Source: Membranipora membranacea (Eukaryota > Bryozoa > Gymnolaemata > Cheilostomatida > Membraniporidae). Taken from it: 64,000 nt of DNA. The DNA lies in the NCBI GenBank assembly GCA_914767715.1, contig OU612072.1:8928001-8992000 (forward strand), written 5' to 3'. This document shows positions 1 through 24,900 of the stretch, piece by piece (the stretch's first letter is position 1; each line of letters opens with the position of its first letter). The translations under genes and the position numbers were made by a program. Under the pieces are notes generated by a model that did no database searches, was not told where the DNA came from, and was given only the letters and a program-made list of their open reading frames with translations.

Positions 1-1826
1 AACATTCTGGTACAGTTTTGTCTGATTGCAGAGTATTTTCAGAACCAGGGACACATTGAGAGTTATTACTAATATTATGAACAAGTTTTCAGGTGAGAGT
101 TTTTAAGTTTCTTCGTTAATCTTCTGCAAACAGCTGACTTTGACCTATTCAGAACACAAGTCTTTCTTCTTTTCGTACTAATTCACTCAATAGTGTCAAT
201 TTGAATCAATTCTCTACGCTTATACAGAGCACAATAACTATTCTCTGCAGCACGCTGATTTTTGCGCTTTTCTTCACAAGGTAAGCAACTCAAAGAGATT
301 TGGCATGGTAGTGGCTATACCTTAGGTCCCAATGTCAACAAACTACAACAAGGTACTTAGTAAAAATGAATTATTGTAGCCCCTGTGCTTCAGAGAAGCA
401 TGTTGGTCTCATCATTTCGCATATGTGCTGTGGAAGACATCCCAAAACTTCAATTTCAACGCAAGAACTTTTGGGCGTTAAATACAGATATTAAGGACTT
501 CTCTCAGTAATAGTCCTTCGTTTTTCCTATCATAGTTTGATATCAGTTGTGCATGCATAACTTTAAGATGCCGTTAGATGGAAATTACTTTGAATGCTCT
601 GTTCAATTTCATATCAAATTCAAATTCAAAAAATTGAGGAAGCGGCTTGTCAAATTTGTAACAGTTAGTTTCACTCCTGAGAACAGATGAAAGAAACAAG
701 CTCAAATTTGCTTTATTATAAAATATTATTGGAACATGCCGCAGGTCACCGATGGATCTGCGGACCATGAATATATTTTAGTTACATCCTCATAGAGCGT
801 AAACTCTTGAGTGTTGCTTGGAAGAGTTGATTATTATTGAAATAATAGATGGTATGAATGCCATAAAAGTATTATGTTTATTTTTGCCGCATGGTCTATC
901 GAAATATAAAAAAATGAGGAAAAATAACATGTTTCAATTACTGCAGAAAGGATATACATTAACGGTAACGGTAACAATACACATCCACAATACTAAATCA
1001 TGGTATGGAGATAGACTAATGTTTTGTGATATGAACACCGCACACGGGCTTTTCATAGTAAAATAGTATAGATTCGTCTCAGTGCAACAATTGACTATGG
1101 GCCTATAATATAGTTGTTGAATAAAACTGAGATGCATTGCTAATAATGAGCCGCCAGAAGCATCATATTGGTTAGGGCACAGCTAGTAATGGTTTAATTT
1201 CATAATAATTGAAAACAATATGGAGAAATATGGATACATATAAAAAGAAATTTAATTTTTTTGGGCGAGGGTGTTTATTACGTTCTTTTAAAATTGAGGG
1301 TCAACTACTAGCAAGTCCATTCTAGCCCTAGGAGAGCTTCAAAATATGATAAATTGAAAGATTCTCCAGCTTTTTTAGATAATGCTGCCTGAGTACAAGG
1401 TATAGCAACTAATTTTTAAAATTTTTTAATCGAGACATATAGATATCAGTGCATCAGGACACACTCAGAGCGATTAAATGAAATTTTAGGCAAACTTGAA
1501 ATGTAGTTCAAATCCTTTTCCAGTCTTAGTGTCATCTGTCTTGAAGGTCATTGTTACCGCAAAGAAGTTTATGATATCGTAAGTCAAAGTTTGATTGGTG
1601 GGCTTGGTACCACATAGTCTTGGGAACTGATTCACCTGCAGATAATCGTAACCGCAACCAATACTGCTTTCCAGCTGTCAAAATACATCCAATTCTTTAT
1701 CAGTATCCTTATGGTACATTAATCGTTTGCAGTTTTCAGTTTACAAATATAATATAAGAGAGGAAAAGTATTACATTCAAAAAAAGGAGTTGTTCACCCT
1801 AAAATGGGCGGAAAGAAGAGACGAGC
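1..1826. repeat. Segmental duplication C, left copy (pairs with 51540-53356)
   Basis: Nearly collinear with 51540-53356, with scattered substitutions and short indels. It holds the final CUB exon (1486-1674), that gene's 3' flank and part of its last intron. The homology runs off the window start, so the duplication is larger than seen. Bases 1-1485 contain no gene I can support; the short reading frames there are not exon-like. Confidence 0.85.
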
Positions 1827-4800
1827 CGAAATTGGACTGAACCTAATCCTGCAGATGAGAGCAGTGACAACTAGTTAAGCCGGTGAAACAAAAGAACTTT
1901 TAATTTAAATACATAATATACGGGTCTGTTACGTAATGACTTTTTGTTTGTCTTTGTTAAGCTGATGAGTATCTTTACAAAGTGGTTCCTACATATTGTA
2001 GCTGCGGTTGGATTGTGTATACCCACAAATGAGTGTAGCATAAGTGGAGAACTGAGGATAATATGCTGCTAAACGCTGAGAAGTCAGAGTTGATGAACAC
2101 CTGCCTAAATTATAAGCACAACTATAGTGATGATGTTGTTGTTGATGATGCATTGATGCAACCTAATGCTTTCACCAAATTCTTGGGAATTTTTATTGAT
2201 GATAAACTCTCTTTTAATAAGCATATCGATAAATTAGTAACAAAATGTAACACACAGTTGTTTTTAATGCGTAAATTGAAATCCATAGGTCTTGACAGCG
2301 ATGGCTTGAGGACTTTTTATCTTAGCAACATCCGTCCCATTATCTGTCATGCCTCACCTGCATGGTTTTCTCTCATTGGTGACACAAACTGTGAAAGATT
2401 AGAGCGTCTCCAGCGCTCAGCCTCAAAGATTATACTGCCTGATCATGACTATGAAGATTGGCTAGGAATGTTACACATTCCATATCTTTGCAATTTTCTC
2501 TTTGATAGCTCATACAGTCACTTCACAAAGATTTTACACGATGAATCCCATCCACTTTATAGTCGCTTAAGTTTTAACAGTAACAGAACTTCCTCTCGAG
2601 TCAAACAAGTATTCCGTCCAAAACGATGCAGAACCACAAAGAGGTCCTTTTTTAACTATTTTATGACCTATCATGATAATGGCCTTGTGTATCGTACTTG
2701 ACCGTACCTAACTGCAGTATATCCTTTTAGCTATGTCGCCATCGCTTTTAGTTATGTATTTTTATTTTTGCAGCTACCAGTTTTTTAACCCACACTTACG
2801 TACATTCGATATCATCTCGTATAGATGTATATTGAGTATGGCAGAATGTAATACAATACAATTACAAAATAAAATTACAATTTATATTACACCTGGTATG
2901 TAACCATGTCAATCGATGTTTTGTAACATAGAAATATGTAATATTTTATTGTCCATATTATTCCACATGAACATTCTTAAGACTATGCCATGAACAGCAG
3001 AGAAAAAAAATTCCAGTTGCTATATTGATGGTTGAGTAGTTGTGAAATAAACTGACTTGATGTCTTTGATGACGATATATCATTTTTAGGAATGAGGTTG
3101 TAACCAAAAAATAATAATATTTTCCAGATAATTCATTGAAACCTTTATGAAAAATAGGTAAGGATATTGTTGATATAATTACGGCCAGATATTGACCAAC
3201 TTAGTCAATGATTTATTGCAAAGCTGTCTCATTATGACTCTTATAAATCTGCTGTTTCAAGTCTCAGTCCCGCGAGACATATATTTAGGCCCTCTTCTCA
3301 CATATGTAACTGTTAAGAGTGCTGCATTGCTTATCGTTCCACACACCCATGTGATGCTCTACACAATCTTCATTACCTCCTACGTTGTTAGGCTGCCCTG
3401 ATTGCCAGTCAGTCACCGCTATGTTATGCTGACTCACACCATCCCATCTCCATATGCCCGACTGTCTCTTACCTCCGATCCAGAAAATATGATCCAGGGC
3501 ACCTGCAAGGTGTTCATCAAACCAAGTATTATTTATATGTGAAGACATTGGAAAACCCCATTAAAAACAAAATAAATCAAACTATCTTTATAGTTATTTT
3601 CTAGACTGAAATCAATCCAAAACAAAGTATCAAGAATCCCATTGCATTTCCAAATTCGGGGTCATCTAGCCTTTCTTAAAATCTAAGACAACTCTGACAT
3701 GGTTTACCACATTCGTTTGCAACAAGTCATGTGAGCACTAGCTCTAAATCTAAAATCACCAGTCCTTTGATTCAAATAGATCAAATGTATCGGATGTTTT
3801 GCCTCTGTAGATTTATATCGATCGGAAAGTAGATCCGCTGCAGCATGGGGCTTATAGATAAACGGATGCAGCTCTGATGTAAAAACAGAGAAAAAACCAA
3901 AGATGGTTGGGCCAGCATTGAAGACACACATCTTTTTTTTCAATATCAACACATAAATCAAATGTATCGGATGAACTATGTACTTCCTCAGTAGAGCTTA
4001 AAACCAATGGGAACGTTAATCTGTTGCAACATGGGTTTTTTTAAGGGACTCACCATTCTGGTTATAGACTTTCCAGCTGCCAGTGGCACCCCATCCGGTA
4101 GAGACTGCCAAGCTCTTGATTTCTCTAGCCTCAGTGTCTTGATGCTCCAGTATAACAGTATTACTATCAAAGACGGAGCCACTTCTACCCACCCTGATCT
4201 TTCCACCAGCCCAAGATATCCAAAACAATCTGAAACAAGCATGTAACAATTGATAAATGAGCCACAATGTGAGCAACAAACGATACCAATGATAACCTGT
4301 CGCAAATACAGTACAATACTCAGTAAGGCACATTTGCTTAACTTCAACCCACACTGAGTTTAAACAAAGCTTGATATGATGGAATCAATAATGTGCCATC
4401 AAAATATTTAAAACCTTCAGGAGTTTTGTCTCGATAACCATTTTACTCTTAAAATGTTTCAGTCGACACGATATGTCAATTATATCGTTCAAGATGCTAT
4501 CACTAAATGAATAATTTCAGCAGATAAGTATGTAAAAATGCTCAAGTTTCAGAGTATTTTTCAACAAACAGTTGAAAGGGGTGGTTAGCATGCTTGCGAT
4601 TCACTGCCAGTTAATTGATGCCGTATATAGGAGGTGTAAATAAAAACTCTCTATCGTCTGTTCAACCTCTAATGTATATAAACTCTTGGCTCAGTTTAAC
4701 ATAGTTTCAACTGAATAGGCTTCCTTGAAAATTTTTTGTTGTTCATGGTCTCGAATTGATATATCAGGCCCGTTGTTCTAGGGGAGGCAGGCGGCACTGA

Positions 4801-7800
4801 ACTAAATACAGTGGCCTAAAAACACTATAATTGAATAATTCATGTCAGAATCAGCTATATGCCTTAAATTGCTAAGAGAGGAGCTTACAGCGACCCTCCT
4901 GGTGATGCTTCAGTTTGCCTCCCCATATCAATTTTCTAAACTACCACCCTGTATATATTCATGTATTGCAATAGATTGACATTGATCGTTTCTGACCTTT
5001 CTGCCGAACAGTCAACAACAGAGCTCTGATTGTTTGAAGCCACCTCGGCTCCTTGAAACTCGTGCTTGATAACAGATCTGGTGTTTCCCCATCCACCAAG
5101 AATTATCTCGTATACTGGAACTTCAAGGCTAGAGAACAGATGATGAACAGTGATAAAATAAGAAGTGTTTTTCAATGTGTATCCTGCTACGGGCTATGAC
5201 TTATTACCGATTCACTTGATGCAAGGGGACTAGAAGCTTGCAGATCATCCTGTAAAGAGTAATGAGAGTAATGTCTGAATTATTTCATACTTTTATGAAG
5301 ATAATGAGACCTGGAAGTGATTGACCATACTGATGCATATACGGAAAGTATGTCTACTATAAATATATTGGTATGAGTTTTCATCCATTTTTTGGGCATT
5401 AATATTGGATCAATTATCTAAAATTTCTCATGAGGATTAGAACAAAATTCTCTTTGGTATCGATATCGGTATTGGTTTATTTTAATTTCTCTATCTGACC
5501 AAGGTTCGATAACATTGAAGTTTTGTGCTTTTTTTTACTCAATATAAATGTGGCTATTGTTAAAAAATCTCATATAGTACTGGACTGGACATTATTAGCA
5601 CACCACGGGGTGTTCTCTTGAGATTATTAAAACTAATACATCTAAAAAATGGATGTGACTGGCTACTACTAATACTATTACTAATGCTACTACTAATACT
5701 ATTACTAATACTATTACTATTACTATTACTAATACTGTTACTCTTACTTTTACTATTACTAATGCTAAAGCTATTACTAATGCTAATGCTATTACTAATA
5801 GTGTATCTCTTACCTGCTGATACCAGAAGCAGTAGGCTGAAGGGTTAGATGTGCATCATTGCAGGCTTTCACTGTAAACTTAACATAGTTCTTGTTTGTC
5901 AGATCCAAATTCTGAATAGTTTGATATGCGTGGGCGTCTGGAGTTTCCTTGGCTTGAATCTTATCTAGAATAAAGTTTATTTAATAATGAATAATTTGTA
6001 AAAGCTAAACTGAAACAGCACCTGTTTTGTATATGTATTTGAATGTATAGGTATACGTAATATATATTTGTGGATATGTATATGTTTAGTAGGTAGCATG
6101 GTGGGGTCTAGGTTTGGGTAATCGGGTTGAGGCTCATCTTCTATAATATAGGGTATATCAGGCTTCAAATGCATTTGGCTATAATGCCTACAAAAAATAG
6201 GTCAAGGCCGTAGTTTATAAAATAGTGGTAGGGGAGACAAAAATCCTAGAGGGCATCCAGTAACATTACTATTATTATTGTTTTTATTTTGACTTGTGAT
6301 ATTTTGTTATGAACTTTATTAACCACCGATCAAGCATGAAGCAAATAAGACCATGTAAAAACGACAACAAAAATTGAAAGAAACAATAAGATGGCATTGA
6401 CGTATATATGTGTATTTATAAAGGAGGCTTTTTCTGCAAAGAGCAGTGTTGAACACAGAGTGTTAAACCTTTATAAGTCTCGTTACATAAAAAGTGACAC
6501 CTTGTTACGAAAGAATCACATTTAAAATTCAGTAAAAATAATTTAAAAAAGTAAAAATCTATTCTTTGTGTGTGGGGTGATTAAGGTGCTCCTGTGGTTT
6601 CTGGGGTGTTGCCAGAAGACATCCTCAACCAATTTTATCTTTCTGAAGCTCAATAGGTTATAAAAAAACACAACTATCTGATTTAACAATAAAGACACAT
6701 ATATACACCTCTTTCCTTCCAGTTGAAAGTGCTAATGTATCAATATCCAGTACTTCAGGAGAATCAAGAAGTGTAAAATGTGGACAATCAGTTTTTGCTT
6801 GCGTCAAAAACTTTGTTGGGCTAGTCACACAGAAATCGATACTACATTATTACCCTGTGTAACTCTGATGATTACTCAGTTCATTAAAGTCAATTTGGGC
6901 AAATCTTGGGCTAAGAAGTTGTCTTCTCTTATTGTTGAAATTTGGTGGCTCATTTGCAGTATAGAGTTATCACCCCATCTATCTATCTGTGTAAAACATT
7001 TTAGTTTCAAGCATGTGGATAGACTGCTTCACAGAGTAAAGGGATTCAGAGTAAATTTTTTAACAATAGTCAAGGAAAGAGTTTTTTACTCCTTGGTCAA
7101 GGTACCTGCGAGCTTTGCATCAAGGGGAAAGTTATGGGAAGCTTGATGCCAAAAACTCCTTTCATCTATTTGTCACAATTATAGGGTTCTGGAGAATGAA
7201 CTGAATTCAAAGTTTTTGATTACAGTAAAAAATAGAATATGCAGGCTCTCTCATAAAAATTTCTCTTTGTACAGCCTTACTCCACAATTAGACATGAAGT
7301 TTTATGCTTAAATTACACCTAACTATCCTAGCTAAATTGATACGGTGGGTATAGCTAGGAAGGCAGTATTGTCGCAGTTTTTACAATAGGATTAACTTTT
7401 ACAATCCTTGAATGATGCTGCCACAATGTACCCTTGGTCTGTGCAATCATTGAACCTTAAATTTATCGAAAGTGCCTCATATCAAATGTGTCTGCGGTCC
7501 ATCGTCTACTGGGCTTTGGTTGGCACCCAGGTGTGCGCCGACCTGCCTGCAAATAGAGAGCAACCTGGCGCAGATATTGTGGCCTGGCCACTAAGGCAAC
7601 GAATTTCGCCGCCTATGCTCCGGGATGTGGCTTGTGACAAGACATCTGATTTAAATCAACCTTCAATTTTAATCAGTCTTGAGACACAAAGGTTATCCTC
7701 AGGTTTTGATATTCTAATAGTACATTGCCTTTAATTTGGAAAAGATAAACAAGGCACAACAGCAACAAATTCTTTCCCTATAATGAAACACAGAGACTGT

Positions 7801-10800
7801 AATACAACTGGTTGTTTACAAATAAGATTTTCTTGAGGGATTAGAAAATTTACTGTGAGAAAACAATGTCTGTAATTGCTCTAACTGATAATTCTTCATC
7901 CAGCTTAGGTCTCAATTGTACTTGGATCGTTTCAATGCACCGCATGGAGAATTGCTTCAGATTTTGTTTGGAGGCCATCTCAGATTTGTTGTTTATTGAG
8001 GCAGCCCACCTGTTTGGCTAACCGAATCCTCAAAAGTAACGACATTATAACTTGTTGCAGTATAGATGCAGTCCCAGGGCACACTCTACTTGATTGTGCA
8101 ATAACTCCCGGAAGAAGGTTTACCCGGCTAACCAAGAGTGAAGTGATCGCAACATTGTTTAACTTTTTAGAAGCATGGACCATGTTTTTGTTGAGTAAAG
8201 AGAGTGTGGATAATTGAATGTCGACAAGGTGTCATGGTCGATTGCAAAAATGTAAATATATGAGTAGCCAGCCACTAAAGCCTATTGATTCAACATAATA
8301 TGATATGATATTTTAGATGCAATAAAATTGGTATAAAAAAACGGGGCACCCAATATGGGCTAAATTTTTTGTATCAGAACTGGGGTTTCGGGCTTGGAAT
8401 GCTGGTTGGAAAATATATTTGGACTGAGCAGGATTACAAATTGTCTAGCACTGGGCTATGGTTGGAACCCAGGTGTGCTCCGACCTGCCTGCAAACAGAG
8501 AGCAACCTGGCGCAGATATTGCGGCCTGGCCACTAAGGCAACAAATTTTGCCGCCTATGCTCCAGGATGTTGCTTGCGACAAGACATCTGATTTAATTCA
8601 ACCTTCAATTTTGATCTGATGTAATAATGCTATAACACATAAATATCATAAGAAGCAACAAGTCTTGAGACACAAAGGTAATCCTCAGGTATTCTAAAAT
8701 TACATTGCCTTTAAATCCTTTGGAAAAGATAAACAAGGCACAACAGTAACAAATTCTTTCCCTGTAATGAAACACAGAGACTGCAATACACTGGTTGTTT
8801 ACAAATAAGATTTTCTTGAGGGATTAGAAAATTTACTCTGAGAAAACAATGTCTGTAATTGCTCTAACTGATATCTTCATCCAGCAGAGGTCTCAATTGT
8901 ACTTGGATCGTTTCAATGCACTGCGTGAAGAATTGCTTCCAATTTTGTTTGGAGGCCATCTCAGATTTGTTGTTTATTGAGGCAGCCCACCTGTTTGGCT
9001 AACCGAATCCTCAAAAGTAACAACATTATAACTTGTTGCAGTATAGATGCAGTCCCAGGGCACGATTTTTAAACAAATGTACAAATTCAACCGTAACATG
9101 AATGCTGTCAATGGTTATTTCAGGACTGCAATTCCTTAATGGTGATAGATACACCAAGGTCGAACATACAGAAACCAGCTCACTGAAAATGCAGCAGAAT
9201 ATTTCACATAGAATATCATGTGTGTTATTAAGGGTGAGCCCTCCAGACACACAGTTAGCATAATCCTATACGCATCCAGCATAGTTACATTAGTGTTTTT
9301 CAATAATAAAAATATTGGGATGACATTGGAGTAAAATTTAAGCTCAAACATTTGGGTGTAGTTTGAAAATGCTATCATTGAACATTATCCACTGAAAAAG
9401 CCAAATCCAAACCATGTTTCGGAATATTAATAATATTAATTATTTTGAGGTCTATAGTCATTCTGATAGAATTTGATGGGTGACTGATGGGACACCACGA
9501 TCTATACTGAAAACGTATATCAACCAACATAAATATTCTTTTGTTTAAGTTCAGTATAGCATCTCCATTGTCATTTGTAAATTGCTCCACTCCTTTGATA
9601 AAAGGCAATTAGAATTTGTTGAAACTGTACCCAATGGCATAGAAACTACAAATATATAGGCTCTTTGCACTGCCTTGCCCAACATTGCCACTGCACTGAT
9701 GGATGAAATAAACACCGTAATGAAAAAGTAAATCGCAATTTTAAATATGTTAAAAAAATATTTCAAACATGCCCTCAAAAGCTCATTTAGATTATGTGAT
9801 GAACTGATGCTCCAAAAAACCCAGATCTCTGTGAGTTACCATGTCGAAGTGTAGTTCTGCCCAAACAGAAAAACACGAACTTGGAGATTTTTTGTCAGAT
9901 TTGGAGTTTTTTGCAGAAAGAAATAAATGAATAGTTAGCTGATTGACTAACGATCCAGGTGACCAAATGTGGTTATTCTGAATTAAAAACTGTAGGAAGG
10001 AGATAGCTTTTGGAAAAGTAAGGAGGAGATAACTACAACTGAGCATTTTTGACTTTAAATAACTGAGTAGAGTCAATTTAGTACGAGGACCTAACCTGTA
10101 CCCGCCCGTAATTAGTCAAATTGAGCTCAGATTGTTACACCAAATTCCTTGTGATGGTACTCATGCCAAGTGAATTTGTTCACTCTCTCTTGATCAGAGA
10201 GAGAGTGAACAGCTTAGCCTACAGCCTTTGATCGTAGCGAGTACTTACCTGAATCTAGGAGGAAGCCCTTCATATAATGAATCATCCTCCGGTTAGGAAG
10301 AGTAACAAGCTTACTACCATGTGATCTACACGATGCCTTAGCATTACTCCAGGTTTCCTTGTTCATGAAGAGTTTAACACATGTATCCTCTGGTGTTAGC
10401 GCCCAGCCATATGGACAACCACCACCAACACCTACCACTGCAGTCCAGCAAGCTGTAATGGTAAAATAGCGGGATATATATCCAATTGCCTCTAAATATG
10501 ACAAATTATCACACATAATGTAGAACCCAACATAAAGCCAGAAAGCAAGGAAAATATTGATAAATATCCCTCATGACCACATGTGATACTAGAGTGGGAT
10601 AAAAAACGAATCATCAAGAGTTATTATACAATACTTACAGCCAACGATGACGCTTATTAAAGTGAGGCAAAGTGCTGCAATCTGCATTCTCAGTGTGCTG
10701 TGTTAGAGATGAATGGAAGACAGTGAAGAAAGGAATGAAACTAATCATCTTGCCCTCTGCTTTATATACCGCTTTTCTCACAAGGAAGCTGACTTGCTGA

Positions 10801-13607
10801 CTGGTGTTTGAATTCAGCTAATCTAATAATAATTACTAGAAATGTTGATCATAAATGCCACAAAACTTCAAGGGAGTGGATGATATACTCTCAGGTTGAC
10901 AATTGAGTTTATGATTGATGGCCAACTGGCGATGTCATTATAAGTGCAAAATAAATGGCTGTCCTTTCCATGCCACCTATGAGTTAGACAGCCGGAGTCT
11001 CGTTGTCCTATTATGTGGCAGAACTTCCCCAAATTTATTTTCAGTGAATACAGCCATAGAATATAACGTAACAAACACGTTATAATTTTGGTATATTTAT
11101 ATATATTATATAAAAGCAAAGGGCTCCTCCCCATGCTCCCTCCTTGCTTTTTTTAATCTGGCCTCACCGGAATTTTAACTTGGGCTGAGATCAAACACTC
11201 CCACCGCTCAGCCACGCTGGGCCGCTTAAGCTTGCAAAGCTCAGTGCGAAATAATCCAGGTGGTTAAATTTAATGATGTAGTGCATGTAAGTAGCAATAA
11301 ATAGGTACCAAAAGATAGTGAATAGGTCACAATGTCTTTACCTATTGATATCCACACAGCTGGAAGCTTTGGAGGCTATTACCATAAATCTCCCTAATGT
11401 TAATTTTTCTGTCAGTTGATGCCCATTGATATCTCATCTCTCATGTGTACACTGCAAGCGTTATCGTGTGAATGACCAGTTATATATTTTAAATGAGGTA
11501 CTTCCGAAGGTCAAATTTTCTCCGATTTATTCTTACTGATTTTCTAGGGAAGTTTTCATTTGCAAAAAAATGACTTCATCAGGGCAGGATTGCCAAAAGT
11601 TAAAATTAGTTTGTTTGTTTTCAGTCCCATCCAGTGGACAAGACAAAAATAAAGCATCACATTTCAGTAGTAAGTATCTGTTGTGTAAGAGGAAAAACAC
11701 AAGTCTGAATTCCCCTTGGAAAGATCCCAATCGGGGATTGTGAGCTGATATTTAGACTGAGTCCCCAGTACTTTCAACTTTTCCTGTTCAGTCCTTTTAT
11801 GTCATATTATCTTTGTAAATGAGAACAGGCCTCTCACTTGTTTCCTCTTAGTTATGTTTAATATTTTATGAATCACATACTTGGCAATGTTCCCAAATGA
11901 TAACGTTTAACTATTAATTTGATTTGATCCGCCCTACTCTATACTTATGAGGATGCAACTTGTCGAACAAAAATCTGGAATTGTCATATAATTTCAAATC
12001 CATTTTCTATGAAAGATGACAAGGAACTATAAATTATCCAACTCCATTTTTCCTGTTCAGCTTGCTACAAGGAAAAAACAAACCTAAATATTGATGAAAT
12101 TTGCTTCATAAGATGGTAAATCTACAAAAATACTGTCATTTCTCTTCTAAGAATAGTGAGGAACTTGGCAGTGTCACATACACTGTATATGACACGCCTA
12201 GGTGCATGACTCTACATGAAGTTAGGCGTTGTATATTGCACTGTCATGGTTGCCATGGTCCTAATCTGATTAATTGTTATACTCTTCTGCATTCACTTCC
12301 ATTTCTTGAACATTTATTTACCATCTAAATGCTGAGGTTGGCCATCAAAATAATGACGTATCATCCCACCCGTTTCTATTTTTACGACCTATTTATACAG
12401 GTCAGTATAAAGAGCAGTGGTTTTTGCTCTGAAGAATCAGTTACAATTGCGAGTTACGATCGGGAGTTACGTGTGACAGTGACAACTTGGCATTGCAATT
12501 TATCAGTTGCCTGGGGCATTTGCCCCAGGGTGTCGTTCAGTAATAAAATCATCAAACTGCCGAAAAACTGCATTCAGTATTATAAAGTAATCTCATATGA
12601 ACTCTGCCAGCAGTGAAATGTCGTGATATTTCTCGATCCGACAGCAGTGTAAACTTAAATCTGCAACCAAAAGGATGTTTCAAAATTGGCTATCAGCCAA
12701 CATACTAAAAATACTGTTTAAATCTGCTTGTGTGTAAAAGATGAACACGGATTTAGCTGGACTTTGTTGAGGAACTTGTAGAGTTTTGGCAGCTTTTCAG
12801 CTTTTGCATCAGATGGTACAACCTTCCTCGCCCTCAAATAAGCAGTTTGGTGGGAGATCTAAGCAAAGGGGAATCAGGTTCGACAATCCTCTGCTGTTAT
12901 TTGCTGTAGAATTCCAAACTTACCTCAAACTGCTGCAGTGTAATCTGCATCTCACTATAACGATTATTCAGGTAGAATGAGCAAGTGTGCAGTTGGTTTG
13001 AGGTGTAATTTGTAACAGGGTAACCTTCAGTATTAATAAAGCCTTCTGAGCACTTCCAGAAACTCTTTCTGTCATCTGTGTCCAAATCCAATGTGCTACA
13101 TGGGGATGCGTTACTGCACTCAGAGGCTGAATAATAGAACCATTCAAGATTTGCAAAAAATATCTACGAGTGCAGTTTGACAGTTAAACATACCTGCATT
13201 TAACTGAACAATGTTATTAAAATCTGGTCGGCGCAATAACCTAGTATTTTTTTTTGCTTAGCAAAAGGTAATGATGATGCAACTAATGCACATTCACAGA
13301 ACTTCATAATCTGAACTCTGATTGGAGATTGTTAAACAACAAAAATGTTCCATTTCTATCAAGAATTAAGCAATAAATCATTCACATGTCACCATATTTA
13401 CGAACCCTCTCACCTGAAGTCAAGACCGAGTATGCTCTGTTTGTTAAAACTTATCTATGGTTTGAGATATGGACATCAACTGAAATAGGATTATGTTACT
13501 GGGCTAACTGGCAAAAGTACCTAAACTCCCTCTTAAACATCTACTGTTGGATGCTCTGACACTCCCAGATGAAGTGGGATTCCAGGCTGATGCATTGCTC
13601 TCATTGG
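1486..13607 (-). CDS. CUB-domain gene, left copy, last intron expanded to 11 kb
   Basis: Partial gene related to the receptor at 53016-57644. Readable exons in transcript order: 13194-13256 (63 bp, phase 1-1), 12924-13126 (203 bp) and 1486-1674 (189 bp, ending in a stop). The last two encode one CUB domain with four usual cysteines (FWKCSEGF, LHTCSFYL, GCGYDYL, RLCGT). The final intron, 287 bp in the right copy, is about 11.2 kb here because it contains the duplicated block with the CTL-FAMeT gene on the same strand. Tail, membrane and stalk exons homologous to 54601-57644 are not seen; homology stops near 13330. A possible private stalk exon, 13521-13607 (87 bp, phase 1-1), is weak because its donor is GTACTT. 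An AATAAA lies at 1274-1279 (-). Whether this copy is expressed, or is a receptor fragment, cannot be told from sequence. Confidence 0.55.
2036..2882 (+). mobile_element. 5'-truncated non-LTR retrotransposon (LINE), reverse transcriptase C-terminus
   Basis: The ORF from about 2036 to 2701 reads as the thumb and C-terminal part of a CR1-like reverse transcriptase. Visible family motifs are MLLNAEKSE, FLGIFIDDKLSF, HIDKLVTKCN, FYLSNIRPIICH, SPAWFS and LERLQRSASKII. The catalytic YxDD motif and the endonuclease are absent, so the copy is dead and 5' truncated. The 3' end after the stop at 2701 runs into A/T-rich repeats (AATACAATTACAAAATAAAA), typical of a LINE tail. The copy in the second block is 14662-15515. 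Confidence 0.85.
2883..3284. other. Spacer and 3' UTR of CTL-FAMeT copy 1
   Basis: No gene seen. On the minus strand this is 3' flank of the CTL-FAMeT gene, with a canonical AATAAA at 3212-3217, 68 bp past the stop codon. The rest is AT-rich and featureless. Confidence 0.5.
3285..10687 (-). CDS. Secreted C-type lectin with a FAMeT domain nested in the CTLD, copy 1
   Basis: Six exons on the minus strand: 10639-10687, 10249-10452, 5814-5964, 4997-5128, 4054-4229 and 3285-3502. All junctions are GT/AG and phases agree; the sum is 930 bp, giving 309 aa. Exon 1 is a signal peptide (MQIAALCLTLISVIVG). Exon 2 is the N-terminal half of a long-form CTLD (CPYGWALTPEDTCVKLF, WSNAKASCRSHG). Exons 3-5 form a complete FAMeT domain (VKFTVKACNDAH, YEIILGGWGNTRSVI, FWISWAGGKIRVGRSG, STGWGATGSWKVY). 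Exon 6 is the C-terminal CTLD half (FWIGGKRQSGIWRWDG, QPN in GQPNNVGG, EDCV, WND, ICEK). All six long-form CTLD cysteines are present, and the QPN/WND residues suggest Ca-dependent sugar binding. FAMeT is a family label, not evidence of methylation. Skipping exons 3-5 stays in frame (471 bp, 156 aa). The alternative is two interleaved genes. Confidence 0.78.
4054..5964 (-). other. FAMeT three-exon cassette (phase 1 to phase 1), copy 1
   Basis: Exons 5814-5964 (151 bp), 4997-5128 (132 bp) and 4054-4229 (176 bp) total 459 bp. They start after codon position 1 and end after codon position 1, so the group can be included or skipped without changing frame. Internal junctions are phase 2. The joined reading contains the conserved FAMeT blocks KACNDAH, GGWGNT, FWISW and STGWGATG with no stop. 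It lies wholly between the two CTLD half exons. Confidence 0.75.
5663..5803. repeat. Imperfect ATTACT/ACTATT microsatellite beside the FAMeT exon 3 donor
   Basis: Simple-sequence tract of tri- and hexanucleotide ACTATT, ATTACT and AATGCT units. It ends 10 bp from the splice donor of the FAMeT exon at 5814-5964, on the intron side. The block 2 counterpart (18168-18283) is shorter; about 155 bp of tract and flank are missing there. The leucine-rich reading frame over it is an artefact of the repeat. Confidence 0.8.
5965..7504. other. Intron 2 of CTL-FAMeT copy 1, distal part
   Basis: Intronic DNA between the FAMeT exons and CTLD exon 2. It includes a short ATT-rich microsatellite near 6266-6290 and the point, near 6530, where block copy 2 is split by the 12.3 kb insertion. 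A 122-codon open frame at 6778-7146 (+) is shared by both copies but has no recognisable domain and is not counted as a gene. Confidence 0.5.
7505..8083. repeat. Intronic direct repeat, first unit (pairs with 8448-9062)
   Basis: About 580 bp nearly identical to 8448-9062, separated by about 365 bp, and present in both block copies (second copy 32291-32869). It begins with a GC-richer body (CCGACCTGCCTGCAAA, AACCTGGCGCAGATATT) that also occurs downstream of the tRNA-like head at 58629. The unit is therefore partly a headless SINE copy that was tandemly duplicated before the block was duplicated. Confidence 0.8.
8448..9062. repeat. Intronic direct repeat, second unit
   Basis: Partner of 7505-8083, with a short insertion around 8618-8660 (GATCTGATGTAATAATGC and following). 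The second-block counterpart is 33234-33848. It lies in intron 2 of the lectin gene and holds no gene. Confidence 0.8.
9063..10248. other. Intron 2 of CTL-FAMeT copy 1, proximal part
   Basis: No gene seen. A near-perfect hairpin at 10179-10211 (arms GTTCACTCTCTCT and AGAGAGAGTGAAC) lies about 40 bp downstream of the exon 2 donor on the transcribed strand. It is kept in copy 2. Confidence 0.5.
10761..10771 (-). promoter_or_regulatory. TATA box of CTL-FAMeT copy 1
   Basis: The minus strand reads GGTATATAAAG, about 75 bp upstream of the ATG at 10687. This predicts a start site near 10735 and a short leader. The same sequence and spacing occur in copy 2 at 35549-35559. The placement supports the chosen signal-peptide start codon. 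Confidence 0.6.
10772..12801. other. 5' flank of CTL-FAMeT copy 1 to the block end
   Basis: Upstream DNA of the lectin gene. Two adjacent open frames on the plus strand (12101-12328 and 12329-12616) are conserved in copy 2 (36880-37107, 37108-37395), but have no recognisable domain and could be conserved only because the duplication is recent. Nothing else is supportable. Confidence 0.4.
12802..13330. repeat. Segmental duplication D, left copy (pairs with 53372-53895)
   Basis: Carries the 203 bp and 63 bp CUB exons. Identity to 53372-53895 ends abruptly near 13330/53895, after TGATTGGAGATT. Duplications C and D are adjacent at 51540-53895 but 11 kb apart here, which is how the block insertion is recognised. 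Confidence 0.85.
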
Positions 13608-14452
13608 CTGAAAATATATAGCGGTTCAACTTAAATTCTTTGTATGTAAAAAGGAGGTGAATAACAACTGTTGATTGGCTGCTTACTGCTGTTTTTAAAT
13701 AGAAAACTTTTTTATTGCCATGGGCAGACAACACTTAATGGTGACACACATGGATGATAAATTACAGCTCGTTTCCAATCCTCTCTTGAAATCCTTGTTT
13801 TGACTGACAAAACTTGGACTATTGTCGAACAATTTATAACATTTATTGAAAAACTTTACTGAGATTCAAACCGTGAAATCTATAAAAGATTATTACAAAC
13901 AATGATTATATGACTTTGTATAAACGCATTACACACTTCTCAAAAAATTAACTTTATACTTTTACTTTACAACTTTGAAAATAAACTGTCACTTCCAAAA
14001 CGTAAAATAATAAGGTGTCAAATGCGTAGTTCCTGATGCCAAATTAGGCCTTTACACAATTCAAGGTATATATATATATAATCCTTGAAGGAGGAATGCA
14101 GGTTACAATAAAATAATAAGGGTAATATTCATACCTTTTGCCTTCTTTCCTTTAAACTGATTTTGTAAAATAGACTGTGTTATACTTTCAAAACTGTCTG
14201 AGTTCATTTCCTAATGAACTGAGTGCACTGACTCATAAAAGAACACTGAAATAGGATATGTTTTACAAGATATTCAGGGAACTAACCAACACAAAGACCA
14301 GGGCGGGCCCAGATCCCCTCAGACCAATCACGGACAGCCAACGCCCCATGAAGATGTTAGGAGGTGGCCAGAAGTTGCAATAAATACACTCCTCGACACA
14401 ATACTGCACCCTGGATCCCCTGTTTAAAGAGTAAATTACTCTATTGTTCCCC
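13331..14452. other. Single-copy stretch between CUB copy 1 and block copy 2
   Basis: No firm gene. It includes the weak stalk exon 13521-13607 (-). A short minus-strand reading at 14346-14263 opens with ATG and hydrophobic residues below a TATTTAT-like box near 14385, followed by a GTTAGT donor, but its phase 0 does not fit the phase-1 CUB exons. A TA microsatellite lies at 14067-14080. Confidence 0.35.
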
Positions 14453-14661
14453 CGAAATTGGACTGAACCTAATCCTGCAGATGAGAGCAGTGACAACTAG
14501 TTAAGCCGGTGAAACAAAAGAACTTTTAATTTAAATACATAATATACGGGTCTGTTACGTAATGACTTTTTGTTTGTCTTTGTTAAGCTGATGAGTATCT
14601 TTACAAAGTGGTTCCTACATATTGTAGCTGCGGTTGGATTGTGTATACCCACAAATGAGTG

Positions 14662-15515
14662 TAGCATAAGTGGAGAACTGAGGATAATATGCTGCTAAAC
14701 GCTGAGAAGTCAGAGTTGATGAACACCTGCCTAAATTATAAGCACAACTATAGTGATGATGTTGTTGTTGATGATGCATTGATGCAACCTAATGCTTTCA
14801 CCAAATTCTTGGGAATTTTTATTGATGATAAACTCTCTTTTAATAAGCATATCGATAAATTAGTAACAAAATGTAACACACGGTTGTTTTTAATGCGTAA
14901 ATTGAAATCCATAGGTCTTGACAGCGATGGCTTGAGGACTTTTTATCTTAGCAACATCCGTTCCATTATCTGTCATACCTCACCTGCATGGTTTTCTCTC
15001 ATTGGTGACACAAACTGTGAAAGATTAGAGCGTCTCCAGCGCTCAGCCTCAAAGATTATACTGCCTGATCATGACTATGAAGATTGGCTAGGAATGTTAC
15101 ACATTCCATATCTTTGCAATTTTCTCTTTGATAGCTCATACAGTCACTTCACAAAGATTTTACACGGTGAATCCCATCCACTTTATAGTCGCTTAAGTTT
15201 TAACAGTAACAGAACTTCCTCTCGAGCCAAACAAGTATTCCGTCCAAAACGATGCAGAACCACAAAGAGGTCCTTTTTTAACTATTTTATGACCTATCAT
15301 GATAATGGCCTTGTGTATCGTACTTAACCGTACCTAACTGCAGTATATCCTTTTAGCTATGTCGCCATCGCTTTTAGTTATGTATTTTTATTTTTGCAGC
15401 TACCAGTTTTTTAACCCATACTTACGTACTTTCGATATCATCTCGTATACATGTATATTGAGTATGGCAGAATGTAATACAATACAATTACAAAATAAAA
15501 TTACAATTTATATTA
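14662..15515 (+). mobile_element. LINE reverse transcriptase fragment, block copy 2
   Basis: Counterpart of 2036-2882. The ORF to 15327 differs from copy 1 by a few residues (for example R for Q after NT, S for P in NIRSI, G for D in LHGES), all in frame. It duplicated with the block rather than by independent retrotransposition. It lacks the YxDD active site. Confidence 0.85.
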
Positions 15516-15920
15516 CACCTGGTATGTAACCATGTCAATCGATGTTTTGTAACATAGACTTATATAGAAATATGTAATATTTTATTGTCCATATTATTCC
15601 ACATGAACATTCTTAAGACTATGCCATGAACAGCAGAGAAAAAAAATTCCAGTTGCTATATTGATGGTTGAGTAGTTGTGAAATAAACTGACTTGATGTC
15701 TTTGATGACGATATATCATTTTTAGGAATGCGGTTGTAACCAAAAAACAATAATATTTTCCAGATAATTCATTGAAACCTTTATGAAAAATAGGTAAGGA
15801 TATTGTTGATACAATTACGGCCAGATATTGACCAGCCTAGTCAATGATTTATTGCAAAGCTGTCTCATTATGACTCTTATAAATCTGCTGTTTCAAGTCT
15901 CAGTCACGCGAGACATATAT

Positions 15921-18900
15921 TTAGGCCCTCTTCTCACATATGTAACTGTTAAGAGTGCTGCATTGCTTATCGTTCCACACACCCATGTGATGCTCTACAC
16001 AATCTTCATTACCTCCTACGTTGTTAGGCTGCCCTGATTGCCAGTCAGTCACCGCTATGTTATGCTGACTCACACCATCCCATCTCCATATACCCGACTG
16101 TCTCTTACCTCCGATCCAGAAAATGTGATCCAGGGCACCTGCAAGGTGTTCATCAAACCAAGTATTATTTATATGTGAAGACATTGGAAAACCCCATTAA
16201 AAACAAAAGAAATCAAACTTTCTTTATAGTTATTTTCTAGACTGAAATCAATCCAAAACAAAGTATCAAGAATCCCATTGCATTTCCAAATTCAGGGTCA
16301 TCTAGCCTTTCTTAAAATCTAAGACAACTCTGACATGGTTTACCACATTCGTTTGCAACAAGTCATGTGAGCACTAGCTCTAAATCTAAAATCATCAGTC
16401 CTTTGATTCAAATAGATCAAATGTATCGGATGTTTTGCCTCTGTAGATTTATATCGATCGGAAAGTAGATCCGCTGCAGCATGGGGCTTATAGATAAACG
16501 GATGCAGCTCTGATGTAAAGACAGAGAAAAAACCAAAGATGGTTGGTCCAGCATTGAAGACAAACATCTTTTTTTTAAATATCAACACATAAATCAAATG
16601 TATCGGATGAACTATGTACTTCCTCAGTAGAGCTTAAAACCAATGGGAACGTTAATCTGTTGCAACATGGGTTTTTTTAAGAGACTCACCATTCTGGTTA
16701 TAGACTTTCCAGCTGCCAGTGGCACCCCATCCGGTAGAGACTGCCAAGCTCTTGATTTCTCTAGCCTCAGTGTCTTGATGCTCCAGTATAACAGTATTAC
16801 TATCAAAGACGGAGCCACTTCTACCCACCCTGATCTTACCACCAGCCCAAGATATCCAAAACAATCTGAAACAAGCATGTAACAATTGATAAATGAGCCA
16901 CAATGTGAACAACAAACGATACCAATGATAACCTGTCGCAAATACAGTACAATACTCAGTAAGGCACATTTGCTTAACTTCAACCCACACTGAGTTTAAG
17001 CAAAGCTTGATATGATGGAATCAATAATGTGCCATCAAAATATTTAAAACCTTTAGGAGTTTTGTCTCGATAACCATTTTACTCTTAAATGTTTCAGTCG
17101 ACACGATATGTCAATTATATCGTTCAAGATGCTATCACTAAATGAATAATTTCAGCAGATAAGTATGTAAAAATGCTCAAGTTTCAGAGTATTTTTCAAC
17201 AAACAGTTGAAAGGGGTGGTTAGCATGCTTGCGATTCACTGCCAGTTAATTGATGCCGTATATAGGAGGTGTAAATAAAAACTCTCTATCGTCTGTTCAA
17301 CCTCTAATGTATATAAACTCTTGGCTCAGTTTAACATAGTTTCAACTGAATAGGCTTCCTTGAAAATTTTTTGTTGTTCATGGTCTCAAATTGATATATC
17401 AGGCCCGTTGTTCTAGGGGAGGCAGGCGGCACCGAACTAAATACAGTGGCCTAAAAACACTATAATTGAATAATTCATGTCAGAATCAGCTATATGCCTT
17501 AAATTGCTAAGAGAGGAGCTTACAGCGACCCTCCTGGTGATGCTTCAGTTTGCCTCCCCATATCAATTTTCTAAACTACCACCCTGTATATATTCATGTA
17601 TTGCAATAGATTGACATTGATCGTTTCTGACCTTTCTGCCGAACAGTCAACAACAGAGCTCTGATTGTTTGAAGCCACCTCGGCTCCTTGAAACTCGTGC
17701 TTGATAACAGATCTGGTGTTTCCCCATCCACCAAGAATTATCTCGTATACTGGAACTTCAAGGCTAGAGAACAGATGATGAACAGTGATAAAATAAGAAG
17801 TGTTTTTCAATGTGTATCCTGCTATGGGCTATGAATTATTACCGATTCACTTGATGCAAGGGGACTAGAAGCTTGCAGATCATCCTGTAAAGAGTAATGA
17901 GAGTAATGTCTGAATTATTTCATACTTTTATGAAGATAATGAGACCTGGAAGTGATTGACCATACTGATGCATATACGGAAAGTATGTCTACTATAAATA
18001 TATTGGTATGAGTTTTCATCCATTTTTGGGCATTAATATTGGATCAATTATCTAAAATCTCTCATGAGGATTAGAACAAAATCCTCTTTGGTATCGATAT
18101 CGGTATTGGTTTATTTTAATTTCTCTATCTGACCAAGGCTCGATAACATTGAAGTTTTGTGCTTTTTTTCTACTAATACTATTACTAATACTATTACTAT
18201 TACTATTACTAATACTGTTACTCTTACTTTTACTATTACTAATGCTAAAGCTATTACTAGTGCTAATGCTATTACTAATAATGTATCTCTTACCTGCTGA
18301 TACCAGAAGCAGTAGGCTGAAGGGTTAGATGTGCATCATTGCAGGCTTTCACTGTAAACTTAACATAGTTCTTGTTTGTCAGATCCAAATTCTGAATAGT
18401 TTGATATGCGTGGGCGTCTGGAGTTTCCTTGGCTTGAATCTTATCTAGAATAAAGTTTATTTAATAATGAATAATTTGTAAACGCTAAACTGAAACAGCA
18501 CCTGTTTTGTATATGTATTTGAATGTATAGGTATACGTAATATATATTTGTGGAAATGTATATGTTTAGTAGGTAGCATGATGGGGTCTAGGTTTGGGTA
18601 ATCGGGTTGAGGCTCATCTTCTATAATATATATATCAGGCTTCAAATGCATTTGGCTATAATGCCTACAAAAAATAGGTTTCGTTTTCATGTCAAGGCCG
18701 TAGTTTATAAATTAGCGGTAGGGGAGACAAAAATCCTAGAGGGCATCCAGTAACATTATTATTATTATTGTTTTTATTTTGACTTGTGATATTTTATTAT
18801 GAACTTTATTAACCACCGATGAATGCATGAAGCAAATAAGACCATGTAAAAACGACAACAAAAATTGAAAGAAACAATAAGATGGCATTGACGTATATAT

Positions 18901-21900
18901 GTGTATTTATAAAGGAGGCTTTTTCTGCAAAGAGCAGTGTTGAACACAGAGTGTTAAACCTTTATAAGTCTTGTTACATAAAAAGTGACACCTTATTACG
19001 AAAGAATCACATTTAAAATTCACTCCAGGGTAATAAGGTCACTGGTTCGAAATTGCCCTCTCACGTTAAAACCTTCAAAAATGAAGAGTTGCCCTCTCTC
19101 TTCGAATTTTCACAGGCTTTGATATGATTGGCCCATTACATCTTACTTTTTTCTTATTGGCCTGTTTAATAACTTCATACTGATTACAATATCTGTGTTG
19201 GGGAACACTGAGTTAGTTATCGATATTGCTAGTAAGTAGTCAACTTTCTGAACAGCAGTCAGACTCAGTGGCACCAATTAGTTACTTCACAGACACATAA
19301 GACCACGATGAAGAGATGATGAGCCAACTCAGCTTCACAAGAAGAAGAAGAATGAAATTAGAACAGCTGTGAATGGACTTGATTGAATCAATTTGTTGTA
19401 GCTCTCAGGTAAATAAATGTTATTTAGTATTTATTTGGTACACTACTATTCTACTACTCAGTTGTGAGTGAAAAATGAGTAGACTAACTAAGAAGTCTAG
19501 CTAGTAACTGTTAGTTACTATCACTACTAGTAGCTTTCTGTAGTTTGCCAATGGTACCAGTCCAATGTACATGTGCAGTGTAATATCAAGCAAGGAGAAG
19601 GACTCCTAAGAGTTGTAAGAGGGGGGGGGGGGAAGGCTCATACAAGTCCAAGGAGTTAACTCCTTACTCCTCGCTTTGTTGTTTGTTGGTGGTGGCATGT
19701 TTAGGTGGGCAACTCTCGTGCAACTAATTGTCTAGAACTGTTATTGCTAATCTACTATGGCTACATGTAGGCCTACATACTTTACATTGTAGGGAAATGC
19801 CCCCTCTCTTTACTACAACTACAGCCTATGTAGGCTGGGTCTTGTATTTGTATAAAGTGTGTGCATAGGCTTTGCCTCGGCGCAACTGACGGATCATTAT
19901 TGCTTTATGTCAACCATTCCCAACTCTCTGAGACTGGTGGGGTCACCCTTAAATACAAACAGCAAAACTATATACATATCAGTATACACTTTATTTACTG
20001 ATCAAGCATGCGCATATAAGACCAAGTGGTACATCATCATCTAGCTTAGTAGGCGAGACCTGCTTTTAGCTTCGTTCGAGAATTGGCCACTAATCAAATT
20101 GAACTATGCTCACTCTTGTGTGAACTATTTGCGAACAAATTTATCTAAGGAGCGAGGATATTGAGCATTTAAGTTGTAATGATCTTTTGGTTTACAAAGC
20201 ACAGCTCATGCTAATTGAAATATTCCCTGGTCTGTAATGTAATAAAGAATATACCAACCCCGATGACCAGAGGAAGGAAACCAGTGCAGACCGTGCCTTT
20301 TGCCAATGGTATTGAATTCAAATGATTTGTTGGCTGTACAGAGTCTCAAGTGCGTCACAGTGGTCATTTCATTATAATAAGCAGTGATCGGGGAGGGGGG
20401 CGGATTGCATATAATATCACATGTGTGGGCTCTTTGAGTTGCAAGCATGTACTTCGCCTTAATTCAGTGTCAACCACTGACAACCATTGGTTATAGTGGT
20501 CTGTAGTTGGAGAGTAGAGAAATTGGTTACTGAGAGAAACTAGACCATTGCCAGCTTGCACACAATTGCAAAAGTTTCCCAAATGTAAATCTTCATCAAT
20601 AGAATGGTGTATTCAAGTGTTGTAGAGGTACTAGAGTATAACGCTGGTTTCATTATTCGTCTTGTTAATTTGGGAAAAAAGTAGATAGACCTAGATACAA
20701 GAAATGACTCCTTTTGATTGCAGATTTTTTTGTATTTTAGTCTACATTGTAAAGCAACACAGACCGCAGAATAGTACTGAGAACAGTACAATGAAGAAGA
20801 GAGTGTTTGGGTGGTTTATAGCAGATGTGATACAACTCGTAGTATCAATAGTCGTTCAGCTTACTCAATTCAAACAGGTAAGCAGACAATCAAATTTTCA
20901 ATTTCGGTTGTAAAATTTGATTAAGTTGCAGCAGGGAACTGACCCAGAAAGGCTTGAGATGGCTGGGGTTATAAGCATCGATATCTCCACTGTTACACTT
21001 GCATCGAGCATCGTTAGTAATATAATGATATAAATGTCAGGTGATATGTGTAGGCTAACTGATGATAATTGCGTCGGTGTAATCGTTGAAGTATCATGGC
21101 ATAAATTTGGTAAAACTGCTTGAACACTGGCAGGCCTCAGCAAGAATTTTTCATTGAAGCCGGCCAGTTAGTGTAATTAGGAGTTCAGTGACTATCGGAG
21201 TTGTGCTCTTTTTTTCATGGAGGGAACAACTCATTCCATCTCGCAACATCAAGTCACCTCTTCCCTATATTCCACCCTCCTTGCCACAGCTCTTTATCTT
21301 GAATGATCATTTTAGTTACAAATTTGCTGGCGTTATGTGCTGATCAAACCTATAGATCGAGTGTTTCCATTCCAAGACACCAGATATAAAACTTCACAAA
21401 CTTCTTCACCAACGGCTGGCAAATCTGTTTCCATCATAGGGATTGTAGATTTAACCAGGACTTTAAGCGTTGTGTTATTTGTTATTTGGCAACATGCTAG
21501 AATCAGGCTCTCAATGCAGAGAAAATTGAAGGGTCCAGGGATGAACCTTGTAGCAGCAAAGCCTTGTTATAAGACTGCAAATAATTTGAATGCAAATAAT
21601 GTACATAGGACATTGGAATGTATTATATTCATACTTTATCACATCATCAACTAAATATTTCTTGCAGAGAATACAGGAGAAAGACTGATTCAGTATGGCA
21701 TGATTATGGCAGAGTTACGCATCAGAACCTTTGGTGGTTTGAATTCTGTCCTGAGAAATCTTGATGTACCGAGTGAGTGTCTGAGTGTCAAATAGTTACA
21801 TTATTATGATTCATGATGGGTCATGATATACTCTTCGCTACCCTGACGCAGTGATCATTTGTATTTGATTGTCCAAATCAAGGATACCATCGGTAGCCTA

Positions 21901-24900
21901 ATTGGTAACCATATCTCATACTCATTGAAAGATCTCCCTCTCTCCCTTCACCTGCTATCTACCTTATCAACCTAATTAGTGGTTAACTAATTAGATTGAT
22001 AAGGTAGATTGCAGGTGAAGGAAGGGGGGGGGGGTGAATGAAATGATAATGAAATCTGTCTCTTAAAGTATTGTCAATAATTGTTCGATTGTGGTTATCA
22101 TGGGGCATTTAACTTCCCAACATATGTTGGTGTGTGGGTAATTCTAGGTCACAGGCCCTAAAAAAAATTAAACAGCATAAAACTTGTTTCTAATTTATAG
22201 TCAACTAAACGTATAGCCTTGGGAGTAAGTATTAGCTAAAGTTTAGTTTAGCTAGTCTTGAGATGACTTAATGTAAGCTAGCATTAAATTTTGGCTAGTG
22301 AAGGTTGAAGTCCATAAAAAGAAAAAAAGGGTGGGCGTATGTTTGCTACTCTTGAAGTTAGCTTTTTCAAGCCTGCGCAAAATGAAGAAAATTTCCTCCT
22401 ATGAATACTTTACTCCTCTATGGAACTTTTTATGAAGATAATATCTGCTTGATTTTGATTACTGTACCTTACATTTTAGAACGTACCTGAGGCATTGGAT
22501 TAGGGGGATGTTGGCATCTATTGACATTTGACTACCGCGTCAAACAACTTGAAGGCAGTTAGTGTAGGAAGAACAAGTATTCATCAGATAAAGTGGTAAG
22601 CTACTCTCACACTACTCTGTAAGTCTACTCATTCTTCACGACTGAGTAGTAGAGTAGTACTCTACTACTCAGTCGTGAAGAATGAGTAGACTAACTAAGA
22701 AGTCTAGCTAGTAACTGTTAGTTATTATCACTACTAGTAGCCTTCTGTAGTTTGCCTATCAGGGGTGTCTTTCAATTAGAAAGAGCGATACTTTACTAAA
22801 GCAAATTATCACCATCGCATCACTCGAAATTATTGCCCACTTGGTCTTTCAATTAGACAACATCACTCCCAAATCGCTCGCTCAGAATGTATATAGTTCA
22901 ATCATTGACTGAACGATTTGAAAGTGAGACCCCTAGCAGGTATTCAGAGTAGATCAGAAGATGATTTGATGGTATTCAGTAGCTAATAAACCATGGCTTC
23001 CTGCCAGAAATTGCCAGAAGAGTAAACCATGAGTTACTTCAATACCATTGGACCCCACTTACATGATGGGGCTACTCTAGTGGAGTAATGTTAATTCAAT
23101 AGGAAAAGTTTGCATTTCGAGAAAATGGCTTGAAGTTATAAAATTATGGCTAGCCAACATTTTCTCAACTCCGTCACTTGACATTAACTTCCAGTGGATG
23201 ACCTCACGTTCAAAGTTTTAAGATACTTGGGTTTTAATGAGCTCATTGGATGGTTGTGACAGGGTTGTCACATCCAATTCTTGAGAAAGGCACCCAAGTG
23301 CCTTCGGAGTTCTCCTCTATTACAAAAACTAAGTGCAGACAACCATTGCAGTACTAACAGTCTGCTGAATAACAATAAAAAAAGCATGGCTGTAAATGCT
23401 GTTGGCAAATTCCCACATGATTATAATATAAGTTGTATGTCAATTAAAATATTTTCACCCCTGCATTTCCGGTTGCTCCAATCCTAGTAAAATCCAAGTA
23501 AAACAATGTTGTCTTGTGTTGATGGCTGGAGGGGGAGCAGCTCCAAATATAAGCAAATTAGATTAAAATTTTTCTTGAGGTAGAGAATGTTTTACTTTTT
23601 ATCACCATGCTCAGTAAATAACCTAACAAAGAGTCAAGTAGATGTCGAGCACATAGTGCTTGCTTTCCAATCTAGTCAATGCAATGTCACAGTGTATGTT
23701 ATGTCATTATCCCTATCGTTTTATCCAATTTTTCTGCATTTGGATTCGCTTCTGGTGTCACCAGTAAAATGGGAGGAACTTGAAATGTACCGTAATCCCT
23801 CACCTATAGATCGCGTGACTTATAAGTGAAGGCGGCTATAAGAGAGTAGCATATAGACGCGACTATCATTTGAAGCATTTTTATATTTATATTGAACCAA
23901 AACCTAGTACAGTCACCGAAGCTGAATAGCTCAGTGGTAGAGCGTACGACTTGTAAACATTGAGTTGTTAGTTCGAAAACCCACTGAGGGCAGTTTTTTT
24001 CTCAAAACTACTTAGTTCATTTGTAGTGAGTGTAGCGTAGTGAGTGTCTTATAGCTGTGGGGTGTCTTATAGCTGTGGGGTGTCTTATAACTGGAGCATT
24101 TTTATTTTTTCTGAGGGGGATGATTCACTTATAAGTCCGGTGACTTATAGGTGAGGGATTACGGTAGGCATTTATCACAGAACTTGTAATGGTTCTGGAT
24201 CAAAGAAAGAAGAAATATGTCTTCATCCAACCAACTTACCATTATTGATGGCCAACCACCCAACCAACGCTACTCCATATTGAAAAGTTTCCCCACTCCT
24301 GATTGCTAAAATGAATTATTCTGAGCCATGATTTTTGCGTCATATTGTGTACTCTGATCTAAACTTCAACAGTGCCTCTGTTAGAAGGGAATTAGGGGGG
24401 GGGGGGTTAATGTATGACAACTGAAGCTTTTGAACAAACCATCGGAGTGAGCATTTGCTAATGTTGTTTCACCTTGGGCCTGACACTGAGCTTATATATA
24501 TTATATCTGCTTTCGCTTTGCATACTTTTGTCTTTTGTGATAGTATGGTACTTCAAAGAGTGCTGTTTTGATGTGGCCGCGTGGGCCTACATACATCTCA
24601 ATTCGGAGTTTAGTGGACAGTCATAGCTTCATCATATTCTATAGACGGCATACAATAGATAGCTGTCAGGAGGTCATTTCTCACAGATATACTCATATAT
24701 GGTGTCCCAAACTCCGCACATAATTTTTTTCTACAACAATCTTACCGTTGTTTTGACTTCACATCATGAAATTTCTACATACAAGATTATTTTTTACAGT
24801 TTTACTATTTGGAGGAGTAAACGTAGAATGGGGACAGTGACTCAGAAGATATACGACAGAGCATCATACTCAGCAGATTTCTCACACCTTGTCACCCACC

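Follow-up and report, generated by a model that had tools for sequence, protein, structure and literature searches.

The 64,000-nucleotide (nt) stretch of the Membranipora membranacea genome analysed here (contig OU612072.1, positions 8,928,001 to 8,992,000; hereafter the window, numbered from its first letter) contains a six-exon gene on the minus strand at 10687-3285, the product of which carries a complete FAMeT domain (PF12248, Methyltransf_FA) within a single C-type lectin domain (CTLD). This domain nesting is real, conserved, and apparently undescribed. The gene is termed copy 1 to distinguish it from a second intact copy in the same window. Its structure is best explained as a nested 'lectin in lectin', in which the FAMeT domain is normally always included and the CTLD closes around the insert, and this explanation is considered probable.

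Gene structure, domain content, and nested relatives

According to the splice sites read from the DNA, all exon borders of copy 1 are AG/GT. Exon 1 (10639-10687) contains the start codon, encodes a hydrophobic leader that resembles a signal peptide by eye and has a counterpart in the closest relative, P0001, and exits in phase 1. Exon 2 (10249-10452), with phase 1 at both edges, encodes the N-terminal half of the CTLD, consisting of strand 1, helix 1, and helix 2 as assigned from the model of P0001. The FAMeT domain is encoded in three parts by exon 3 (5814-5964; phase 1 in, phase 2 out), exon 4 (4997-5128; phase 2 at both edges), and exon 5 (4054-4229; phase 2 in, phase 1 out). Exon 6 (3285-3502) encodes the C-terminal half of the CTLD, with the WIGG, QPN, and WND motifs and three CTLD cysteines, and ends with the stop codon. 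The phases after exons 1 to 6 are 1, 1, 2, 2, 1, and 0. Two pattern matches frame the gene: a TATA-like core promoter element (10763-10768, minus strand), approximately 75 nt before the ATG, and an AATAAA polyadenylation-signal-like element (3212-3217, minus strand), approximately 70 nt past the stop codon. The full product consists of 309 amino acids, and the product from which exons 3-5 are skipped consists of 156 amino acids with the junction DSG-ALDHIFWIGG. The exon coordinates, splice phases, and both products had been proposed in a first-pass annotation of this DNA, and are reproduced when they are derived again.

In the 309-residue product, Pfam assigns residues 94-235 to PF12248 (99.3 bits, cut-off 24.2), covering profile positions 3-138 of 140, so that the FAMeT domain is of full length. 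The proposal that the three central exons encode a complete domain with phase 1 at both outer edges is thereby borne out. Lectin_C is split into two stretches in this product (56.5 bits), and forms a single stretch in the skip product, at profile positions 2-107 of 107 (70.7 bits). In a six-frame profile search of the window, covering 1580 stop-to-stop open reading frames (ORFs) of at least 25 amino acids, CTLD or FAMeT halves are confined to copy 1 and the second full copy, with the best other row at E 0.58. Another C-terminal CTLD half that exon 2 could use, which the first-pass annotation had named as the case that would speak against it, is therefore absent from the window. No Rfam or tRNA matches are obtained in the window.

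A protein database search with the 309-residue product yields 15 proteins. The best of them, P0001 (304 amino acids, encoded on a 1180-nt contig), is 69% identical to the window product from start to stop. Chance is excluded as the source of the domain order, since a relative at this identity carries it over its full length. Profile searches detect three further nested proteins, P0020 (315 amino acids; 25 member sequences, longest contig 1399 nt), P0123 (321 amino acids; 1136-nt contig), and P0124 (304 amino acids; 5 members, 967-nt contig), which are 28-32% identical to P0001. The domain order that was to be sought in relatives is thus carried by all four of these independent full-length sequences. 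The proposed site of the insert, between helix 2 and strand 2 of the CTLD, is also borne out. The contigs of the four relatives are probably cDNA, because they are too short for introns like those of the window gene and their ORFs are uninterrupted.

P0012 from Ostrea edulis contains FAMeT followed by the C-terminal CTLD half as in the window, but its gene model starts at FAMeT without the N-terminal half. It is named 'C3 and PZP-like alpha-2-macroglobulin domain-containing protein 8', a name that fits neither domain; Pfam detects only FAMeT and the CTLD half in it. P0012 probably represents a nested lectin whose gene model is truncated and wrongly named. In the read-through ORFs P0018, P0022, and P0046, the sequence after FAMeT diverges at the point that matches the end of exon 5, where the letters appear to fit a phase 1 donor.

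Eight cysteines are kept in all five nested proteins (window, P0001, P0020, P0123, and P0124). Six of them, Cys 29, 41, 58, 284, 297, and 305 of the window product, are taken here to be the CTLD core cysteines C1-C4 and the N-terminal pair of the long form. Cys58 and Cys305, presumably the pair that joins helix 1 to the last strand, straddle the FAMeT insert and are retained. When FAMeT is cut out at points chosen by us from the alignment, each of the five proteins gives one continuous Lectin_C match, from profile position 2 or 3 to 106 or 107.

Predicted folds and known counterparts of the two modules

In the predicted models of two relatives, the two CTLD halves fold into one CTLD around the insert. 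The CTLD shares its core, the WIGG-type motif, and cysteines with single-domain secreted C-type lectins (PF00059) such as codakine, and is continuous like these once FAMeT is removed. It differs from them in that approximately 150 residues of FAMeT are located between helix 2 and strand 2. The best sequence match in the PDB is codakine (2vuv), a bivalve lectin. Of the EPN/QPD-type motif and WND by which Ca2+-dependent sugar-binding C-type lectins are recognised, the window product has QPN and WND and P0001 has EPN and WND; the signature is altered in P0020, P0123, and P0124. Ca2+-dependent sugar binding is therefore not expected to be a property of the whole family.

The FAMeT insert shares the CNDAH, YEIVIGGWGNT-like, and FWISW core with other Methyltransf_FA proteins. 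In the predicted model of P0001, residues 84-231 are nearly all strand with a single helix element of four residues, and the alpha/beta Rossmann-type fold of a methyltransferase dependent on S-adenosylmethionine is not found. Instead, the insert aligns as a CBM66/galectin-like jelly roll in the predicted models of two relatives, which is a match to the jelly-roll beta sandwich of Galectin and ConA-like lectins in fold only. According to these models, the "methyltransferase" domain resembles a lectin fold. The likeness to Galectin, CBM66, and ConA-like proteins is purely structural: among the matches listed, those to galectins, CBM66, and legume lectins are approximately 6-13% identical, and such a resemblance shows no function. 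A sequence search of the PDB with a profile of 35 rows, mostly FAMeT, gives nothing better than E 0.04.

In the FAMeT proteins compared, PF12248 occurs in tandem or next to DUF3421 or EGF domains, whereas the domain is nested in a CTLD here. Passages in PMC10015273 describe pfam12248-DUF3421 and 2x pfam12248 proteins in arthropods. FAMeT is also reported, in passages of the respective papers, from Haliotis shell proteins (PMC6003135), from shell-repair genes (PMC8194122), and from sea star adhesive proteins, where its role is unknown (PMC9382459); its function in adhesive and shell proteins is likewise given as unknown in passages of PMC9382459 and PMC10015273. The main text of a survey of bivalve C-type lectins (PMC10140915) does not mention farnesoic, FAMeT, or Methyltransf. 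Among the papers listed from the open-licence PMC literature, judged by titles and abstract openings, no paper is recognised in which FAMeT or another whole domain lies inside a CTLD. The statement of the first-pass annotation that no such protein is described thus holds for this literature but not for the databases, in which proteins with the nesting exist. The nested FAMeT in a CTLD-containing protein is apparently undescribed. The joint between helix 2 and strand 2 of the CTLD may tolerate approximately 150 residues, as the nesting suggests. The nesting is conserved among distantly related sequences, and it links FAMeT to a lectin context and a lectin-like fold, so that sugar binding by FAMeT is the obvious question.

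Proposed origin and function, and alternative explanations

The product of the gene is proposed to be a secreted 'lectin in lectin', with a single CTLD built from exons 2 and 6 and a complete FAMeT jelly roll inserted in the connection between helix 2 and strand 2, where it would normally always be included. The insert probably arose once, when exon shuffling placed a phase 1-1 module in a phase-1 intron of a lectin gene with a single CTLD, and this insertion would predate the split of the lineages of the relatives. The CTLD would still close around the insert, with the cysteine pair Cys58-Cys305 that spans it being kept. The protein most likely recognises glycans outside the cell through two modules in rigid coupling, one a CTLD with a QPN/WND-type site, which would make it a Ca2+-type lectin in this species, and the other a galectin/CBM66-like sandwich; either module may bind sugar. 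Several points weigh against this proposal. The exon structure of the window gene is known from DNA alone, and the reading of the contigs of the relatives as cDNA depends on their length and uninterrupted ORFs. The structure models are of relatives of the window protein, and their pLDDT (predicted local distance difference test) falls below 50 in places within the long loop of the CTLD. When Foldseek is used alone on P0001, beta-glucanases are ranked first (E 4e-5) and the galectin LEC-6 is ranked 15. Finally, the QPN/EPN-WND signature is present in only two of the five nested proteins. A related but more doubtful possibility is that FAMeT domains in general are jelly-roll glycan-binding modules, so that the protein would be a composite lectin with two sugar sites in fixed geometry, the insert perhaps being skipped in some tissues.

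The first-pass annotation had suggested a splice switch, in which the FAMeT exons form a regulated cassette, inclusion yielding the nested protein and skipping a plain CTLD of 156 residues. Skipping of exons 3-5 is in frame and yields a complete Lectin_C domain, and, according to passages in PMC10015273, FAMeT genes of insects include their PF12248 exons alternatively (1x versus 2x pfam12248). However, the switch requires joint skipping of three exons over 6.7 kb, and exon 4, the only exon that keeps the frame when it is skipped singly, would break the FAMeT domain. The four full-length relatives are all of the inclusion form and lend the switch no support. The nested form is kept down to approximately 30% identity, which argues for a constitutive role. 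In a search for skip forms, in which a first row of 227 residues sets a length range of 125-397 amino acids that admits forms of approximately 150 and 300 residues, no Lectin_C without PF12248 is found among the best 120 of 203 rows, the last of which scores 93 bits. Five of these 120 rows carry Lectin_C, all together with PF12248. As a control, skip constructs were scored with the profile of the same alignment. The constructs of the window product, P0001, and P0020, which are rows of the profile themselves or derived from them, score 259, 246, and 186 bits and would by score be among these rows. For P0123 and P0124, the constructs score 68 and 50 bits, which places them outside the reach of the search, so that the absence of a CTLD-only product carries weight only with respect to close relatives. 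Matching phase-1 joints are also the trace left by exon shuffling of extracellular modules, a process that explains the joints of the window gene equally well. The splice switch is accordingly judged improbable.

That a CTLD gene and an adjacent gene for FAMeT with a CTLD half are misread as one is suggested by the long second intron (4.3 kb in copy 1 and 16.6 kb in copy 2) and by the Ostrea model, which begins at FAMeT. Yet all parts are held in one ORF by P0001, P0020, P0123, and P0124, the profile search finds no other CTLD half in the window, and neither half is a CTLD by itself. A misjoining of two genes is contradicted by the relatives with a single ORF and is rejected as very improbable. 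An assembly artefact, in which copy 1 would be a mis-joined haplotype mosaic with a layout that is not genomic, is unlikely, but less so than the splice switch. Copy 1 and the sequence around it match other regions of the window piecewise, a 12.3-kb interruption in copy 2 breaks the sequence that matches copy 1, and copy 1 itself lies within a second block that matches 51540-53893. On the other hand, copy 2 keeps the same exon order with intact splice sites, and the order is confirmed by the relatives. The claim for the nested lectin protein therefore holds even if the layout of copy 1 is a mosaic.

Second copy and genomic surroundings

The second intact copy lies on the minus strand at 15921-35475 and also encodes 309 amino acids. 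Its six exons (35427-35475, 35037-35240, 18294-18444, 17632-17763, 16690-16865, and 15921-16138) follow the order of those of copy 1, all with intact splice sites, and a TATA-like element is present as a pattern match at 35551-35556 (minus strand). The two copies differ by three amino-acid and three silent changes; their coding sequence diverges by 0.65% and their non-coding sequence by 0.81%. The amino-acid differences are all in exon 2 (codons 62, 64, and 71); exons 3 and 4 are identical, and exons 5 and 6 differ by silent changes only. In a self-comparison, the block that contains copy 1 (1826-12802) matches 14452-19022 and 31316-37580, and lacks 19022-31316. This corresponds to the approximately 12.3 kb by which intron 2 of copy 2 is longer. 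Insertion of a transposable element as the source of the difference was considered and rejected; the similarity of the supposed terminal inverted repeats (score 23) does not exceed that of random pieces of the window (median 22, 95th percentile 31). The 2-base-pair (bp) CA repeat at this site is compatible with insertion and deletion alike. Three tandem copies of a 162-bp unit (29155-29642, 97% matches) lie in the additional sequence of this intron in copy 2. In intron 2 of copy 1, a stretch of approximately 570 bp is present at 7508-9063 in two direct copies, which are separated by approximately 940-985 bp and are piecewise 93-99% alike.

Remnants of reverse-transcriptase-like ORFs are seen by eye at 2039-2701 (plus strand), for which there is no supporting Pfam match, and at 42593-43387 (minus strand). 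The block of copy 1 is flanked by two blocks whose counterparts at 51540-53893 are only 15 bp apart. These blocks seem to encode the halves of a CUB-like domain on the minus strand, at 1486-1677 and 12897-13163 with lectin copy 1 between them, and again at 53016-53207 and 53465-53731 with no lectin gene between them. The second half matches PF00431 with 18.6 bits, below the cut-off of 21.4, and the first half, which gives no Pfam CUB match, is called by eye. Copy 1 thus seems to be intronic to a CUB-like gene that has been duplicated, and both are on one strand. Three minus-strand ORFs upstream of the second CUB-like copy (57363-57704, 55940-56275, and 55143-55427) contain, as judged by eye, a tail YDDIYQYDQEETYAEI that resembles an immunoreceptor tyrosine-based activation motif (ITAM), a stretch like a membrane helix, and a helical stretch like a stalk. 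Together with the second CUB-like copy, these ORFs possibly encode a CUB receptor of the type II membrane class that has a signalling tail.
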